From: a virus
IMG/VR virus record: IMGVR_UViG_3300042554_002446
Span: 1 to 20,290 of that record
Length of the DNA: 20,290 nucleotides
Reading direction: 5' to 3' (one strand)
A program made the position numbers and the translations under genes. The notes under the pieces were generated by a model. That model made no database searches, was not told the DNA's origin, and was given only the letters and a program-made list of their open reading frames with translations. This document shows, in pieces, positions 3,883 to 9,367 of the stretch (position 1 is the first letter of the stretch; each line of letters begins with the position of its first letter).

Positions 3883-4470
3883 ATGTCCGACGATCTGATC
3901 GAGAAGATCAAGGCGGCGCTGGGCGGTCGGCAGACGACCGAGGACGACGACGACGAGCCCAGCGGCAACAAGGTGCCGGTCGACCGGTTCCGCGCGGTCG
4001 TGCGCGAGAAGAACGAGATCAAGCGCCAGCTCGCGGACCTCGCGAGCGCGGTGGAGGCCGAGCGCAAGAGCGCGGCGAAGTCGATCGAGGAGGTCAAGGC
4101 CGCGGCGGCGCGCGAGGTTGCGAGCCTTGCGGCGCAGCATCAGGAGCACCTGGCGGCGCGTGACCTCGGCTTCGACGAAGACGGCCTCGTCGCGCTTCGG
4201 ACGGCGTACCAGCGCCTGCCCGAGCAGGGACGCCCGAAGTCGGCGGTCGAGTGGTGGAAGGCCGCGACCTCCGACGAGAAGGCGCGCGAGACGCTTCCGA
4301 AGACGCTCCAGGCCTACATCCCCGCAGCGAAAGACGAGGCCCCGGCACCGAAGACCCGCTCGGCAGGTCTCGACACGGGGGCCCGGCCGGCGGGCGTGAA
4401 GACCAAGATCGAGGACGTCAACGGGGCCAAGTCGATGGCAGACCTTGCCAAGCTCCTCGGCGCACGGTAG
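3883..4470 (+). CDS. Probable scaffolding protein
   Basis: The 195-residue, highly charged, cysteine-free protein precedes the major capsid gene, the usual place for the scaffold that directs prohead assembly and is then removed. An acidic run (EDDDDEPS, residues 20-27) is followed by a long predicted coiled coil at about 34-92 with heptad-like E/K/A spacing. A compact region (about 95-150) follows, then a Pro/Ala-rich linker and a short C-terminal helix ending MADLAKLLGAR, which could be the capsid-binding end as in other scaffolds (inference). ATG 3883 has GGAGG at 3869-3873 inside the preceding gene. The last codons contain a candidate promoter for the capsid gene. Confidence 0.75.
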   Translation: MSDDLIEKIKAALGGRQTTEDDDDEPSGNKVPVDRFRAVVREKNEIKRQLADLASAVEAERKSAAKSIEEVKAAAAREVASLAAQHQEHLAARDLGFDEDGLVALRTAYQRLPEQGRPKSAVEWWKAATSDEKARETLPKTLQAYIPAAKDEAPAPKTRSAGLDTGARPAGVKTKIEDVNGAKSMADLAKLLGAR

Positions 4471-4473
4471 CAT
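4445..4473 (+). promoter_or_regulatory. Candidate sigma-70-type promoter for the major capsid gene
   Basis: TTGCCA at 4445-4450 (five of six to TTGACA) and TAGCAT at 4468-4473 (four of six to TATAAT) are separated by exactly 17 bases. The elements lie in the last codons and stop of the scaffold gene, giving a leader of roughly 65 bases before the capsid start. Such a pair is uncommon in sequence this GC-rich, and a private promoter would fit the high demand for capsid. It is a sequence match only; the host sigma factor is unknown. Confidence 0.35.
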
Positions 4474-4546
4474 CGGGGTACATTCCAGGCCGCGGGTCGC
4501 TCCGGTATCAGCGTAGGCCACCATCCGAGCTTTCTGGAGGTCTACC
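4471..4546 (+). promoter_or_regulatory. Capsid gene leader with strong ribosome binding site
   Basis: This is one of the longest intergenic gaps in the late operon. It ends in a near-perfect Shine-Dalgarno sequence (TCTGGAGGT, GGAGGT at 4536-4541) five bases before the GTG start. Inside, CGCT and AGCG flank the bases CCGGTATC, and outer GGCC copies on either side can also pair, so a two-part stem-loop is possible upstream of the ribosome site. No U-run terminator is present. Confidence 0.45.
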
Positions 4547-5476
4547 GTGGGCGATCCGATCCGTACTGGCACCACTCCGATGTCCGACATCCTCGTTGCG
4601 GCGATCACCCGTTCCATCGGGTTGACGCTGGGCGACCGTTCTGGCGGCGGTCTGCTCGCCAACCCCGTCCTGGCCTCGCAGTTCTTGGGCGCGACCCGTC
4701 TCGGCGCCGCCCTCGGGACTAAGATGGTCGACGTCGGCTGGGGCCTCAACAAGTTCACCGCGACCAGCCAGGGCTCTGACTTCACTGTCGAGACCCTGTC
4801 CAGCGCGGCCGCGACGGTCACCCCGGCGCGCCGCGGCATGGCGCGTCAGGTCTCCGACATGGCCCGCGCGCTCCAGTCGATGGACGAGCTGGCCTTCGTG
4901 CAGTTCGTGACCGATCAGACGATCGCTTGGCAGCAGTCGGTCGTCTCCCTGATCGCCTCCCTGTTCCCGAGCTTCTCGGCGAGCGGCGGCGTGTCCGGCG
5001 GCACCGCGACCTGGGCCTCGATCCTCTCGGCGTACCAGACCCTCGGCATCGCCAACAGCGCCGGCCCCTACGTCCTCGTCCTGCGGCCGAAGGACTGGGC
5101 GAACGTCGCCTCGGACGCCTTCGCGCTCGGTGGTCGGGTGCAGATGCAGGCCGAGACCGACGGGTACCTGAACACGGTCAACCCGGGCTTCAAGGGGCAA
5201 TACCTCAACGGCAACCTCTGGGTCTACACCTCCAGCGAACTGCCGACCAGCGCAGGCGACACGGTCTGCGGCATGTTCGGCCCCGAGGCGCTCGCCTGGG
5301 ACGCCTTCATGCCCGAGCCCTCGCCGGCCACGCAGGTCCTTCTCTGGACCCCGCTTTACGGCGTCGAGATCAACCGCGACTCGCTCAAGAGCGAGGATCA
5401 GGTCGTCGGCTCGACGCACCTCGGCGCGAGCATCCGGCAGAACGCGGGCGGCATCAAGCTCCTGTTCGCGACCTGA
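4547..5476 (+). CDS. Major capsid protein (HK97-fold type likely)
   Basis: The 309-residue product forms the icosahedral shell. The call rests on position after the scaffold, size, the strong ribosome site and low charge with many Ala, Ser, Gly and Thr. The N-terminal part has short helices (residues 10-60), followed by an extended-loop-like beta section (VGWGLNKFTATSQGSDFTVETL) and a long helix with MARQVSDMARALQSMDELAFVQF. The C-terminal half has PYVLVLRPKDWANVASD and VEINRDSLKSEDQVVGSTHLGASI, like the A-domain and P-domain strands of HK97-type capsids. The GTG start is supported by GGAGGT spacing. No N-terminal propeptide or cleavage site is obvious and no upstream protease was found, so the scaffold may leave uncleaved (inference). 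Confidence 0.85.
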   Translation: MGDPIRTGTTPMSDILVAAITRSIGLTLGDRSGGGLLANPVLASQFLGATRLGAALGTKMVDVGWGLNKFTATSQGSDFTVETLSSAAATVTPARRGMARQVSDMARALQSMDELAFVQFVTDQTIAWQQSVVSLIASLFPSFSASGGVSGGTATWASILSAYQTLGIANSAGPYVLVLRPKDWANVASDAFALGGRVQMQAETDGYLNTVNPGFKGQYLNGNLWVYTSSELPTSAGDTVCGMFGPEALAWDAFMPEPSPATQVLLWTPLYGVEINRDSLKSEDQVVGSTHLGASIRQNAGGIKLLFAT

Positions 5477-5491
5477 TCTGATCCCACCCGG

Positions 5492-5514
5492 TACACGTCG
5501 AGGAGGACGTCATG
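5492..5514 (+). repeat. Hairpin ribosome-binding-site repeat, copy 1
   Basis: This is a 23-base segment ending in the ATG of the gene at 5512 and repeated exactly at 8812-8834. Its core ACGTCGAGGAGGACGT is a perfect inverted repeat (ACGTC 5495-5499, GACGT 5506-5510) with the Shine-Dalgarno sequence GAGGAG as the six-base loop. The stem ends one base before the start codon. Confidence 0.8.
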
Positions 5515-6174
5515 CCGATCCCCGGAAAGTCCGCTACTTCCTCTGGCCCTGTCGCCGCCCCTCTGGGTACCCGTCCTGCATCGTCCCCCGTGACGGTGCT
5601 CGGCGGTCTGCCCGAGGTCGCGCGCGGGGACCAGTATCCCCCGCTCCCTGAGACCCCGATCTTCGCCTACTTCGCAGACGCGACCTCGGTCACGTTCGTG
5701 GACGGCGAACCGCTGTACCTCCCCATCAAGGTGGGCTTCGAGGCGGGCATCCAGGGCGTGCGAGATGGGTCGATGCTCGCGGCATCGATCGAGTACGAGC
5801 AGCGGACCAACCGGCGCATGATGATCCCTCTCGACTCGCGGGTGATCGCGTTCGGCGCCGAGCACGGCGGGTATGTCCAGCGGATCGAGCTGGCCCCCGA
5901 TCGGCGCGGCAAGCCGCGGCACCATCACGCCGACGTCTGGACCCGCTACGACGTCGTCGGCGCCGAGGCGATCCCGACCTTCGACGCCGAGGGCTTCATC
6001 GCGTTCCGCCGCAGCCTCGTCGACATCTTGGGCCCCGTCCATCCGGGCGTGATCCAGGCCACGCGGTCGAAGACTCTCCAGCTCGCCGAGGCGCATCGTC
6101 GCATCGGCCACGCGTCCCCGGGGATGGCCCGGATCGCAGACTCCATCGAGGCGCAGCTCGCGCCCCGCACCTGA
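5512..6174 (+). CDS. Virion-region protein downstream of capsid, function unknown
   Basis: I do not recognise this 220-residue protein. It starts with a low-complexity Ser/Pro/Ala/Gly segment (residues 1-35), followed by a mixed alpha/beta domain with FAYFADATSVTFVDGEPLYL and a RMMIPLDSRVIAFGAEHGGYV segment. A His/Arg-rich turn (RGKPRHHHADVWTRYDVVG) and a helical C terminus end it. There is no signal peptide or membrane segment. Its place straight after the major capsid gene and its strong ribosome site suggest a structural role such as a minor head or decoration protein, but that is inference only. It is translated from one of the two copies of the duplicated hairpin ribosome site. Confidence 0.75.
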   Translation: MPIPGKSATSSGPVAAPLGTRPASSPVTVLGGLPEVARGDQYPPLPETPIFAYFADATSVTFVDGEPLYLPIKVGFEAGIQGVRDGSMLAASIEYEQRTNRRMMIPLDSRVIAFGAEHGGYVQRIELAPDRRGKPRHHHADVWTRYDVVGAEAIPTFDAEGFIAFRRSLVDILGPVHPGVIQATRSKTLQLAEAHRRIGHASPGMARIADSIEAQLAPRT

Positions 6175-6182
6175 TCTCGTCC

Positions 6183-6195
6183 CTCTCTCGGAGAG
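6183..6195 (+). promoter_or_regulatory. Inverted repeat covering the ribosome binding site of the next gene
   Basis: CTCTC at 6183-6187 and GAGAG at 6191-6195 form a perfect five-base stem with the loop TCG. The Shine-Dalgarno sequence GGAGAG (6190-6195), six bases before the ATG at 6202, lies almost wholly in the right arm, so folding would hide it. Confidence 0.45.
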
Positions 6196-6201
6196 TGTCC
6201 G

Positions 6202-6654
6202 ATGCCCGTCGCCTCTGCTGCCGTCTATGAAGTCCTGCGCCGCGCCCTGGTCGGCGTCGGCGTCATCATCCGCCCGAGCGGGACCACTGCGCTGACGGCG
6301 TCCCCGTCGATCACGGCCGGGGCCGGCGCGGCCTCCGAGGCCGAACCCAATGGGAGCGTGTACCTGCGGACCAACGGCGACCTCGTCCAGCGCATCTCGG
6401 GCGCGTGGTCGGTCGTCCTCTCTGGCGGCCGCGCCGCCCGCGTCACGGCGCCGTTCAAGTCGACGTTGCAGACCGGCACCGGCAGCGCCCAGAACGTCGC
6501 GCACGGCCTGGGCGTGACCCCTTCGCTCGTCGTGGTCGTCCCCTACGACCTGACCGGTGGCGCCTACGTCGTGACCGAGGGCACCCACACCTCGACCAAC
6601 GTCGTCGTGACCGTGACCAACGGCGAGAAGTTCATCGTCCTGGCCTACGCGTGA
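6202..6654 (+). CDS. Head fibre or decoration-like protein
   Basis: The 150-residue product has an N-terminal helix (residues 5-18), then a Gly/Ala/Ser-rich region with GSVYLRTNGDLVQRISGAWSV, a phrasing typical of phage fibre proteins. The C-terminal beta domain begins with QNVAHGLGVTPSLVVVVPYD (residues 97-116) and ends NGEKFIVLAYA. That His-Gly-Leu-Gly-x-x-Pro pattern is common in phage tail-fibre and head-fibre tips. Lying between the capsid and the head-tail adaptor, it more likely decorates the head than the tail (inference). A trimeric fibre is plausible. The start at 6202 is supported by GGAGAG, spacing six. Confidence 0.7.
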   Translation: MPVASAAVYEVLRRALVGVGVIIRPSGTTALTASPSITAGAGAASEAEPNGSVYLRTNGDLVQRISGAWSVVLSGGRAARVTAPFKSTLQTGTGSAQNVAHGLGVTPSLVVVVPYDLTGGAYVVTEGTHTSTNVVVTVTNGEKFIVLAYA

Positions 6655-7391
6655 CGATCCGCGCCGCCACCTACGCCTTCGGGCGGCCGATCCCGTACCT
6701 CCTCCAGCGAGGGGCTACGCAGACGATCGACTGCCCGGTGCGCTACGGGGCCGGCGGCGCGCTCGTCGCCCCGACGGGCGGGACGTACTCCGTCCTGCGC
6801 CCTGGCGGGACAGCCTTGGTCTCGGCGGCACCGGTTACGCTTTCCTCCTCGATCGCGACCGGGACGGTCACCCCGTCTGCCGCCGAGACTCTCGGCTCGG
6901 GCTGGACCGTCGAGTGGGCCCTGTCCATCGGCGGGCTCAGCTACCCGGCCCGCATCGAGGCCTATCTCTGCGACTGGGTCCCGCTCAACCCGGTCTCGGA
7001 GGCCGACCTGTACCTGCGTCTGCCCGAGCTGCGGCATCGGGTGCCGCAGAGCCAGGGAGAGCGCGGGACCGGCGAGGGCTGGCAGCCGCAGATCGACGCG
7101 GCCTGGTACGAGCTGGTACGCAAGCTCCTGTCCGACGGCAAGCGGCCGTGGACCATCCGGGGCATCCACGGGTCCTACGACTGGGTCCTCACGCGGGCGC
7201 TCCAGCTCTGCGTCGATGCGATCTCGGTGGGCCTCGACGAAAGTCTCGCCGAGCGCAAGCGGCAACTGCACTTCGACATGAACCGGGTCGCGTCTGACCT
7301 TCGGTTCCAGTTCGACGAGGACGCGGCCGAGCTGCGACGGGGCCACGGTCCGGTCATGCGGCTGGCGCCGGTCGGGCGGCCGACGTGGTAG
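6651..7391 (+). CDS. Head-tail adaptor (HK97 gp6-like C-terminal domain)
   Basis: The 246-residue protein starts at a GTG overlapping the previous stop (GTGA); the frame is open further upstream, but only as a shadow of the preceding gene. The N-terminal half (about 1-115) is beta-rich, with CPVRYGAGG and TVEWALSIGGLSYPARIEAYL, and looks like a small sandwich domain. The C-terminal half is helical: LYLRLPELRHRVP, IDAAWYELVRKLLSDGKRP (DAAWYELV from residue 149), WVLTRALQLCVDAIS and RVASDLRFQFDED. This helical layout matches the gp6/gp15-type adaptor ring that sits below the portal. Position in the neck cluster agrees. The beta domain fused in front is less usual. Confidence 0.7.
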   Translation: MTIRAATYAFGRPIPYLLQRGATQTIDCPVRYGAGGALVAPTGGTYSVLRPGGTALVSAAPVTLSSSIATGTVTPSAAETLGSGWTVEWALSIGGLSYPARIEAYLCDWVPLNPVSEADLYLRLPELRHRVPQSQGERGTGEGWQPQIDAAWYELVRKLLSDGKRPWTIRGIHGSYDWVLTRALQLCVDAISVGLDESLAERKRQLHFDMNRVASDLRFQFDEDAAELRRGHGPVMRLAPVGRPTW

Positions 7392-7819
7392 CCCGCGGCG
7401 ACGGCGCGTCGCTCGGCGAGTCGACGTGGCTCGCCGCGATCGAGGGCGTGTACCAGCGCATCGAGGGCCTCGACGCGGCCGGCTACCGGTCCTCGGAGTC
7501 GGACGGCTGGACCCGGGCGCGGGGCCCGGTCCCGACGACGCATCTCTCGTTCTGGGTCTTCGCTGGCGACGAGGTCGTAGCGGGCGCGGGCGGCACGCTC
7601 GTTATGCGCTCCCGCGTGTTGTTCGCGGCGCGCTACGTCGCCGAGGAGCACCCCGCGCACCTGGCCCGAGCGCACGCGGCGGCCTACGCGGTGCGCTGCG
7701 CGCTCCAGTCGAGACAGGACCCCCGCTGTCTGGTCGGGGGCTGGACCCCGGATTACTCTCTCGTCGAGGCCGGCTGGGTCCTCGTCGATCTCGCCTTCGA
7801 CCTGCACCTCCCCTGGTAG
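7385..7819 (+). CDS. Probable tail terminator / tail completion protein
   Basis: This 144-residue product starts at GTG 7385, overlapping the adaptor gene by seven bases. It has an N-terminal helix (WLAAIEGVYQRIEGLDAAGY), a strand pair around SFWVFAGDEVVAGAGGTLVMRSRVLFAARYVAEE, a central helix HLARAHAAAYAVRCAL and a last strand VEAGWVLVDLAFDLHL. This helix-strand-strand-helix-strand order, and the place between adaptor and tail-tube genes, fit the tail terminator that caps the growing tail tube. There is no clear motif, so the call is structural and positional. No good Shine-Dalgarno sequence is seen; translation is probably coupled. Confidence 0.6.
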   Translation: MVARGDGASLGESTWLAAIEGVYQRIEGLDAAGYRSSESDGWTRARGPVPTTHLSFWVFAGDEVVAGAGGTLVMRSRVLFAARYVAEEHPAHLARAHAAAYAVRCALQSRQDPRCLVGGWTPDYSLVEAGWVLVDLAFDLHLPW

Positions 7820-7828
7820 GAGTCCCCC

Positions 7829-8317
7829 GTGGCCACGTCCCTCGCGTCCCTCGTCTCCATCCGCTCGCTTGCCGAGCTGACCCCCGACTCCCCTCAGACC
7901 GGCGCTGTGAAGGGCGAGATCTCGGTCGACACTCGGACCTCGCAGGGCATCGGCTCCGGGCAGGCCGATCGGGCGTACTTCGCTGAGCGTTCGCTGTCCT
8001 CGGGCGCGACTCACACCTACAACGTGCTGGCAGCCGGCTCGCTGACCGACATGCTCGGGCAGGCGATCGATCTTGACGAGGTCAAGGCCATCACGGTGCA
8101 GTGCCTCACGGGCGCGATCAAGGTCGAGGGTGGCGCGGCGAACGTGCTGGCGGCCTTCACCGGGGCTAACGAGGGCCTGAACCTCGGCGCCGGGCAGAGC
8201 TTCGCGCTGGACCTTGGCCCGGCCGGTGTGTCGGTCGGCAGCAACGGCACCTTCGTCGTGACCGAGACGGCCGCGAGCACCGCGTCCTACCGCATCCTCA
8301 TCGTCGGCGCGCAGTGA
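7829..8317 (+). CDS. Beta-rich virion protein next to the tail tube gene
   Basis: The 162-residue product starts at GTG 7829 with GGAG at 7819-7822. Residues 55-162 are almost all predicted beta: LTDMLGQAIDLDEVKAITVQ, then GAIKVEGGAANVLAAF, LNLGAGQSFALDLGP and TASYRILIVGAQ. I recall this arrangement (L.D..G....V.AI.V, then a G.GAAN motif, then GG..F.L.., ending in Y.I.I.G) in small virion proteins of many phages, often beside coat or tail-tube genes, without a firm function. It could be a minor tail or decoration protein, or even the tail tube, with the next gene in the other role; I prefer the next gene as tube. Confidence 0.6.
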   Translation: MATSLASLVSIRSLAELTPDSPQTGAVKGEISVDTRTSQGIGSGQADRAYFAERSLSSGATHTYNVLAAGSLTDMLGQAIDLDEVKAITVQCLTGAIKVEGGAANVLAAFTGANEGLNLGAGQSFALDLGPAGVSVGSNGTFVVTETAASTASYRILIVGAQ

Positions 8318-8324
8318 GGTCCGC

Positions 8325-8804
8325 ATGTCCCTGATCCCTTCCTCATTCAGCGACGGGCAGCTCGTCATCACCGACAACGGCGGCAACTCCGCGACCCTCC
8401 AGCTCTCGCAGGGCGATACCTCGGTGTCGGGCCTGATCCCTGGCGGCCGCACGGTCACCGAAGTGCAGTCCCGCGGCGCGTTCGTCGGGCTTCGCTTGGG
8501 CCAGCGCGTGGCCCCGACGATCACGATCAACGCGGTGCTTTCGTCGCCGACCGATGCCTTCTATCGGCTCGCGATGGGTACCACGAGCGGCTTTGTCTCG
8601 ACGTCTGCCGACATCGGGGATGCCCGCACGGTCGATGGCACGTTCAGCTTCAACTACGGCGCCGAGAGCCGCAGCATCACCTTCGACGACGCCTACCTCC
8701 AGGCCTTCGACGTGAGCGAGGGCGACCCGTCGACGGTCTCGCTCACGCTCGCGATCGTGGGCCCGGTGGAGCTGGACGGCGTGACGCTGATCGCTCAACG
8801 CTGA
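8325..8804 (+). CDS. Probable major tail tube protein
   Basis: The 159-residue product lies two genes after the tail terminator and directly before the tail chaperone pair, which is where the tail tube gene almost always sits. It is beta-rich, with GGRTVTEVQSRGAFVGLRLG, APTITINAVL, TVDGTFSFNYGAESRSITFDDAYL and a final STVSLTLAIVGPVEL strand. This matches the tube fold of strands around a single helix (here around PTDAFYRLAMG). ATG 8325 has GAGGT at 8316-8320, spacing four, overlapping the previous stop. The size is normal for a small tube protein. Confidence 0.68.
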   Translation: MSLIPSSFSDGQLVITDNGGNSATLQLSQGDTSVSGLIPGGRTVTEVQSRGAFVGLRLGQRVAPTITINAVLSSPTDAFYRLAMGTTSGFVSTSADIGDARTVDGTFSFNYGAESRSITFDDAYLQAFDVSEGDPSTVSLTLAIVGPVELDGVTLIAQR

Positions 8805-8811
8805 GTCTGCC

Positions 8812-8834
8812 TACACGTCGAGGAGGACGTCATG
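8812..8834 (+). repeat. Hairpin ribosome-binding-site repeat, copy 2
   Basis: This is an exact copy of 5492-5514, ending in the ATG of the tail chaperone gene. The stem arms are 8815-8819 and 8826-8830, with loop GAGGAG at 8820-8825. The sequences outside the 23 bases differ, so the repeat is confined to the ribosome binding region. Confidence 0.8.
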
Positions 8835-9239
8835 GCCCTGTCTCCTGTCTCTGAGGTGACCGTCGAGGTGAACGGTCACCGAGTCACCCTCCGCAAGCTG
8901 GGGGCTACGGCGCAGGTCGCAGTCGCCTCGGCGCAGCAGCGGGTCGGCGGCGAGCCCGTCGCCGTCCTTGCGCTGGGCGCGGCCGTGCTGGCCCTGTCGT
9001 GGCCCGAGGGCGCGGCCTGGCCGACTCGGTCGCGCCCGCGGCCCTGGCGGCTGACCGATCCGCTGCTCGACTACGGATCGCGCGTCTTCGACGACCTCGG
9101 CGACGCGCTCGGTCTCGACGAGGCCGCGCGCATCTCGCAAGAGGGGTTCTGGTGGGGCCTAGGCGCGCGGGTCACCGAGGACGAGGTCGTAGCCGCCGAG
9201 GGTTTCTCCGCGGCCCCGGTGGCGGGTACGGACGGCTAA
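8832..9239 (+). CDS. Tail assembly chaperone (gpG-type)
   Basis: The 135-residue product lies between the tail tube and tape measure genes, the invariant place of the lambda gpG-like chaperone that coats the tape measure during tail assembly. It has a short N-terminal beta region (VTVEVNGHRVTLRKL), a helical middle and an acidic, flexible C terminus. Codons 124-125 (GGT TTC) sit in a perfect slippery heptamer, and the -1 frame stays open past the stop for 128 more bases. A fraction of ribosomes should therefore make a 178-residue gpGT-like fusion. ATG 8832 follows the second copy of the hairpin ribosome site. Confidence 0.75.
   Translation: MALSPVSEVTVEVNGHRVTLRKLGATAQVAVASAQQRVGGEPVAVLALGAAVLALSWPEGAAWPTRSRPRPWRLTDPLLDYGSRVFDDLGDALGLDEAARISQEGFWWGLGARVTEDEVVAAEGFSAAPVAGTDG
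9200..9206 (+). other. Slippery heptamer GGGTTTC for -1 ribosomal frameshift
   Basis: The bases G GGT TTC are in the zero frame as X XXY YYZ, so both tRNAs can re-pair after slipping back one base (GGG, TTT). The new frame runs LRGPGGGYGRLMLAVCRDWG and on to the TAA at 9365-9367. A weak stem (CCGC 9208-9211 with GCGG 9222-9225) begins two bases downstream, and a stronger one lies at 9229-9252. Confidence 0.65.
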
Positions 9240-9252
9240 TGCTGGCCGTCTG
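9229..9252 (+). promoter_or_regulatory. Hairpin enclosing the TAATG stop-start overlap
   Basis: GACGGC 9231-9236 pairs with GCCGTC 9245-9250. A G-U pair and a C-G pair extend the stem to 9229 and 9252. The eight-base loop TAATGCTG holds the stop of the chaperone gene and the ATG of the downstream frame. Confidence 0.45.
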
Positions 9253-9367
9253 CCGCGACTGGGGCCAGCCCTTGAGCTGGTGGGCGGCGCTCGATCCGGC
9301 GGACCGGGCCCTCGTCGTGGCCGACTACCGGATGCGCCAGCGCGAGGCCGCCCGTGCCCAGAGGTAA
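9239..9367 (+). CDS. Tail chaperone T-part (made mainly as -1 frameshift extension)
   Basis: This frame encodes MLAVCRDWGQPLSWWAALDP then a basic helix ending RQREAARAQR. An ATG at 9239 overlaps the previous stop (TAATG), so a free 42-residue protein is possible. The frame is open upstream through the slippery site at 9200-9206, and the expected main product is a fusion of chaperone residues 1-125 to 53 residues encoded from 9206. The W-rich helix followed by an LDPADRALVVADYR segment is the kind of short domain that recruits the tape measure in gpGT proteins. No Shine-Dalgarno sequence is seen before 9239, which favours frameshifting over independent initiation. Confidence 0.6.
   Translation: MLAVCRDWGQPLSWWAALDPADRALVVADYRMRQREAARAQR

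Follow-up and report, generated by a model that had tools for sequence, protein, structure and literature searches.

The virus record IMGVR_UViG_3300042554_002446 of the IMG/VR database, analyzed here over its full length of 20,290 bases (the window; classed as linear without end repeats), carries the same short sequence directly before two genes of its virion region. Its duplication, its position at the start codons, its conservation within a clade of related phages and the high predicted strength of its Shine-Dalgarno sequence (SD) are shown by the analysis. Based on these results, the element is interpreted, with a probability slightly above 0.5, as a duplicated start-associated translation-initiation cassette ensuring strong SD initiation for two unrelated genes. 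Most likely, the cassette is mainly a strong ribosome-binding site, possibly assisted by a small hairpin.

The 23-base sequence TACACGTCGAGGAGGACGTCATG is present at positions 5492-5514 and 8812-8834, in both cases on the + strand and including the ATG of the downstream gene. The first-pass annotation of this DNA had reported this exact duplication with differing flanks, and both copies were recovered as described; their distance to the ATG is fixed. The 23-mer is the longest direct repeat within the window and the sole exact one of this length, the next-longest direct repeat comprising 17 bases; among inverted matches, the longest has 18 bases. Its core, ACGTC-GAGGAG-GACGT, is a perfect 5-bp inverted repeat located at 5495-5510 in copy 1 (arms 5495-5499 and 5506-5510, loop GAGGAG 5500-5505) and at 8815-8830 in copy 2 (arms 8815-8819 and 8826-8830, loop 8820-8825), both on the + strand. 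A single C follows, and then the ATG at 5512 and 8832, in agreement with the one-base distance noted before. Placement of the SD in the loop, as claimed previously, applies to the GAGGAG hexaloop; however, the SD GAGGAGG extends over 5500-5506 and 8820-8826, and the final G of GGAGG (5506/8826) is part of the stem, so that the SD lies mostly, but not wholly, in the loop. With up to three mismatches allowed, the 16-mer core was matched seven times (twice exactly), compared to a mean of 0.55 and a largest value of 3 in dinucleotide-preserving shuffles, which substantiates the earlier view that a chance duplication is very unlikely.

In 60 viral loci unrelated to this clade, a hexaloop stem of at least five Watson-Crick pairs was found at 22 of 6114 GGAG sites (0.36%), the queried 16-mer being excluded and the hexaloop count alone being used among ten loop definitions tried for SD hairpins. 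This count was used instead of two others (21/2118 and 18/237), which were inflated because their set also contained flagellin leaders and loci of kin phages. By our own arithmetic, the chance of one such SD hairpin arising by accident among about 20 genes is roughly one in ten. As evidence, the duplication outweighs the inverted repeat taken by itself: a single hairpin is possibly accidental, whereas chance does not account for an exact second copy in front of another gene. A hexaloop scan of the + strand of the window returned three sites, namely the two copies and position 2417, against 1.17 expected in Markov copies. No other start site with such a hairpin was detected in the window or in the related record G002, the remaining sites of the scan being located inside genes. 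Position 2417 belongs to another GGA hexaloop hairpin, gccgac[GCGGAT]gtcggc (2417-2434), within the portal gene, which is also present in G002.

Eleven kin contigs were identified, which together with the window form eight lineages showing approximately 93-96% identity between groups ({window, L075, L071}, {L031, L150}, {L148, L149}, L076, L026, L080, L147 and L151). The conserved unit is the 20-mer ACGTC-GAGGAG-GACGT-C-ATG; the TAC of copy 2 is gone in L147 and L151. This 20-mer is invariant in 11/11 kin contigs at copy 1 and in 7/7 at copy 2, the remaining four contigs ending before copy 2. Counted by lineage, the arms are unchanged in eight at copy 1 and in the six of them that reach copy 2. 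Hence, the search of relatives suggested by the first-pass annotation found the cassette retained, and the free variation of both arms that would have spoken against a hairpin did not occur. Five kin records were searched over their whole length (two of them about 33 kb), and each contains exactly two exact copies, with next-best matches showing 2-3 mismatches.

When IMG/VR was scanned for exact matches to the 16-mer core, 71 stretches were returned, comprising the 11 kin (18 sites) and 60 other sites. Open frames of at least 150 codons span 58 of these 60 sites, and for all six with an ATG within 10 bases, the surrounding frame comprises at least 161 codons. Since the core can be read as D-V-E-E-D-V in GC-rich coding DNA, the sites outside the clade are explained as chance coding strings. 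The exact 20-mer was present in none of 396 Actinomycetota genomes; among three matches with one mismatch, L205 looks, by eye, like a start site with a 4-bp stem version. Furthermore, 16 occurrences of GAGGAGGACGTCATG, spread over 15 of 299 genomes of the class Thermoleophilia, all lack ACGTC in front. On this distribution, the cassette belongs to the present phage clade, in two copies.

Predicted pairing of the SD with the 16S tail, for which we presumed the anti-SD sequence, amounts to -11.6 kcal/mol for the genes starting at 5512 and 8832, placing both joint second among 23 candidate starts. The strongest pairing was predicted for the presumed scaffold gene (-12.5 kcal/mol). The 23 positions include one alternative capsid start and a few located 1-2 bases off a start codon, which leaves the top-two ranking unaffected. 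The action of the cassette in translation, the importance of its arms and a joint expression of the two genes by way of it are inferred. According to the favored interpretation, a 20-base unit consisting of a 5-base arm, the GAGGAGG SD overlapping the loop, the complementary 5-base arm, a C and the ATG would have been copied in an ancestor of the clade. The copies would have been retained before two unrelated virion-region genes, each behind a gene for which very high expression is expected. In this position, the cassette would supply the same strong and independent ribosome loading to both genes, instead of coupling to the upstream gene, and the small hairpin may keep the SD clear of the surrounding GC-rich mRNA.

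Each cassette is located in an intergenic gap of 27-35 nucleotides (nt). Copy 1 serves the gene at 5512-6174 (+ strand, 220 amino acids, function unknown), which directly follows the presumed major capsid gene (4547-5476, +). Copy 2 serves the gene at 8832-9239 (+, 135 amino acids), which occupies the position of a tail-assembly chaperone gene, by order only, and is preceded by the presumed tail tube gene (8325-8804, +). The names major capsid, tail tube and tail chaperone given by the first-pass annotation are deduced from gene order and were not accompanied by family matches. Products of the two downstream genes had no match in PHROGs, Pfam or INPHARED, and the presumed major capsid and tail tube proteins had no family match in PHROGs or Pfam. 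Among ten window proteins scanned, a terminase (phrog_2, 1.1e-5), a weak tape-measure match and one PHROG of unknown function were found; two Pfam matches, to a scaffold family (gene before the presumed capsid gene) and to DUF7483, were below the cut-off. AlphaFold models were poor, with predicted local distance difference test (pLDDT) values of 37.5 for the protein of gene 5512 and 42.3 for that of gene 8832. These two proteins are unrelated to each other, and therefore the start region alone was duplicated and no gene duplication took place.

Folding of the isolated 23-mer was predicted to yield the hairpin with the SD in the loop at -6.3 kcal/mol, a value matched by 9/200 shuffles. Within a 71-nt context, the stem is predicted for both copies, together with weak outer pairings that extend into the start codon. 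The possible outer stem of copy 1 (5489-5517, +, predicted from the fold of 5465-5535) pairs CGGUA (5489-5493) with UGCCG (5513-5517) and covers part of the start codon, and that of copy 2 (8809-8836, +, from the fold of 8785-8855) pairs GCC (8809-8811) with GGC (8834-8836). That the differing flanks of the two copies are still predicted to pair is suggestive, resting on three pairs. Moreover, the stem of copy 2 reaches a probability of at least 0.62 across the kin wherever the contig is long enough. A scan of 4300-9300 against Rfam returned nothing above the gathering score and one sub-threshold match, which is located elsewhere than the copies.

Several results weigh against a functional hairpin and thus against this part of the favored interpretation. 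In a context of 121 nt, the stem of copy 1 is absent from the minimum-energy fold, whereas copy 2 keeps it. The probability of the copy-1 stem ranges from about 0 to 0.99 depending on flank length and strain, and the stem is often lost in longer contexts. Compared with shuffled sequences, the 71- and 121-nt folds show no gain in stability (z +0.14 to +1.04). The hairpin displaying the SD, as envisaged in the first-pass annotation, is therefore predicted locally, but not for copy 1 in the 121-nt minimum-energy fold. Compensatory changes in the ACGTC/GACGT arms, which the same annotation had recommended as a check, were sought in 11 (copy 1) and 7 (copy 2) kin contigs, and none exist because the arms never vary. 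Non-coding gaps of the clade are generally slow to change, with 5/76 variable sites at 4471-4546 and 3/27 at 6175-6201. Against this baseline, the invariance of the 20 arm sites is unremarkable (about 0.2), while third codon positions, which vary at approximately 0.2-0.45 per well covered gene across the kin, give about 6e-4; both values are our own arithmetic and the contigs are not independent. The flanks upstream of copies 1 and 2 vary at 1/18 and 3/10 sites, respectively. Judged from these alignments, the arms have been retained, albeit little better than non-coding DNA elsewhere in the clade. Within the same region, a CTCT-CGG-AGAG repeat (6175-6201) containing the SD of gene 6202 is altered in three kin, unlike the unchanged cassette arms. 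Furthermore, a sigma-70-like site, TTGCCA-17-TAGCAT, leads into the 76-nt gap before the presumed capsid gene (4445-4546 in total), which is a candidate capsid promoter or leader; the gap varies at five sites in the 11 kin.

One alternative is a plain duplicated SD: recombination at short homologies would have copied a strong ribosome-binding site of which only GAGGAGG and its spacing matter, the 5' arm being inherited baggage. Hexaloop stems of at least five pairs arise by chance at GGAG sites at the rate given above, non-coding DNA of the clade changes slowly in any case, and the hairpin is restricted to two start sites in the window and in G002. On the other hand, the arms remained unchanged in all lineages covering them, while neighboring gaps did change, as seen for the 3/10 sites upstream of copy 2 and for the SD-flanking repeat at 6175-6201 in three kin. 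This explanation is regarded as unlikely, although it is the most serious competitor.

Two kin records are about 33 kb in size, and one of them, G002, carries endolysin, primase-polymerase, helicase, exonuclease and MazG genes. Queries with the presumed capsid, the terminase, gene 5512 and the portal alignment all returned the same 11 contigs and no more distant relatives. INPHARED contained no match by DNA or by the portal, terminase, gene 8832, gene 5512 or presumed capsid queries; for gene 7829, one weak match to a Bradyrhizobium phage was obtained. The only cellular relative found is a 5.3-kb contig (L121) of a metagenome-assembled genome (MAG) of the order Gaiellales, class Thermoleophilia, which shows 81% DNA identity to the window from the terminase to the scaffold start and ends before the capsid gene. 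In the rest of this MAG, no capsid or tube match was detected. The portal model matched 2/399 genomes of the class, namely this MAG and one marginal case (E 9.7e-4). Since the sole cellular relative originates from a Gaiellales MAG, a Thermoleophilia host is plausible. Between its small and large terminase genes, L121 contains an extra open reading frame (633-1769) resembling, by eye, a DNA adenine methylase; the window has no open reading frame there.

A translational operator represents a further alternative, in which an RNA-binding protein (host CsrA or another) would bind the GGA-bearing hexaloop at both sites, block the SD and link the two genes. According to excerpts of PMC7652899 and PMC4894983, CsrA/RsmE proteins bind ANGGAN hexaloops closed by a C-G pair and may thereby cover the SD. 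The cassette shares this geometry, including the hexaloop, the C-G closing pair and GGA at loop positions 3-5. In the same sources, the A at loop position 1 is described as 100% conserved upon systematic evolution of ligands by exponential enrichment (SELEX), whereas the cassette has G at this position (5500, 8820). Among csrA-bearing genomes of Thermoleophilia, 10 of 29 distinct flagellin leaders (loci L173-L202) contain the SD in an A[A/C]GGAG hexaloop near the start, always with A at position 1 and with a stem of 4-6 pairs, e.g., gattc[AAGGAG]gaatc-ATG. Their arms covary, differing and yet pairing (gattc/gaatc, tccatc/gatgga, gagatc/gatctc, tcttc/gaaga, cttc/gaag), and many of the leaders carry a second GGA hairpin upstream; no second GGA hexaloop hairpin was found near either copy of the cassette. 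The leaders derive from 30 loci of a longer match list, one duplicate being dropped, and several are not independent, having the gattc arm in common. Of the 46 csrA-positive genomes searched (out of 47; G141 was left out due to its weak match), 19 contain flagellin genes. The csrA gene is present in 47/149 genomes of the class, in 2/16 of the family of the Gaiellales MAG, not in the MAG itself, and in 0/6 phage records at E<=1; according to excerpts of PMC7366521, a few phages have a csrA gene of their own.

Consequently, the cassette could work like a CsrA site, but it lacks a defining feature and is not classed there. Compared with CsrA/RsmE hairpin operators such as flaA SL2 of Campylobacter and the Thermoleophilia flagellin leaders, it has in common the short stem, the hexaloop with its closing pair and GGA position and an SD in the loop just before the ATG; it differs in the first loop base, the missing companion hairpin and the absence of csrA from the phage records. 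An operator of this kind is considered improbable. A more elaborate version appears still more doubtful, in which the cassettes would be translational operators of the phage, patterned after or descended from the CsrA-type SD hairpins that precede flagellin genes in the likely host class. A host or phage RNA-binding protein accepting G as the first loop base would restrain the genes following capsid and tail tube and subsequently free both at once. If true, late genes of a double-stranded DNA phage of Actinobacteria would thus be switched at the post-transcriptional level. Repression is the usual effect of CsrA-type hairpins with this shape, and display of the SD, which the first-pass annotation considered a possible means of raising or co-regulating translation, need not raise it. 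As a side result, the leader sequences suggest that predicted CsrA control of flagellin extends to the actinobacterial class Thermoleophilia. Finally, a DNA-level site, i.e., an operator of a dimeric protein or a promoter element lying before the ATG by accident, would fit the perfect dyad ACGTC-N6-GACGT but is very improbable given that both copies occupy the same strand at the same 1-base distance to the ATG, that the 33-kb kin records contain no exact copy elsewhere and that the sole promoter-like match in 4300-9300 is located at 4445-4473, at neither copy.

Literature searches, several of which returned at most one paper, yielded no description of this element. The coat-protein operator of MS2-type RNA phages is likewise a small hairpin at a phage start site, but contains the SD in the stem and includes the start codon, whereas the cassette has the SD in the loop. 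The closest known kind are the Start-Associated Sequences (SAS) of cluster K mycobacteriophages, which excerpts of Pope et al. 2011 (PMC3203893) and PMC12699233 describe as short repeats just before the ATG containing AGGAG, with symmetric outer bases and of unknown function. A role in translation initiation was proposed by the SAS authors, who left open whether a protein or an RNA binds (PMC3203893). The likeness includes the short repeat a few bases before the ATG, AGGAG and the symmetric outer bases (GGGNNNNNNNCCC), as well as specificity for phages and near absence from hosts. The repeated short unit upstream of start codons by which SAS are recognized is found here as two exact copies one base before the ATG. 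In contrast, the cassette differs from SAS in sequence, copy number and gene set: it does not follow the SAS consensus GGGATAGGAGCCC (PMC3203893), by eye only the AGGAG core being common to both. Its arms are longer than those of SAS, and instead of 11-19 copies per genome before non-structural genes, as the excerpted source gives for SAS, exactly two copies per 33-kb kin record are located in the structural region. ESAS-type 17-bp repeats were not noticed here, no search having been aimed at them.

If the arms of the duplicated start-associated cassette matter, it would provide a compact and conserved test case for the effect of SD hairpins on translation in a GC-rich phage. Moreover, it would then represent a further example of start-associated repeats beyond the mycobacteriophages.

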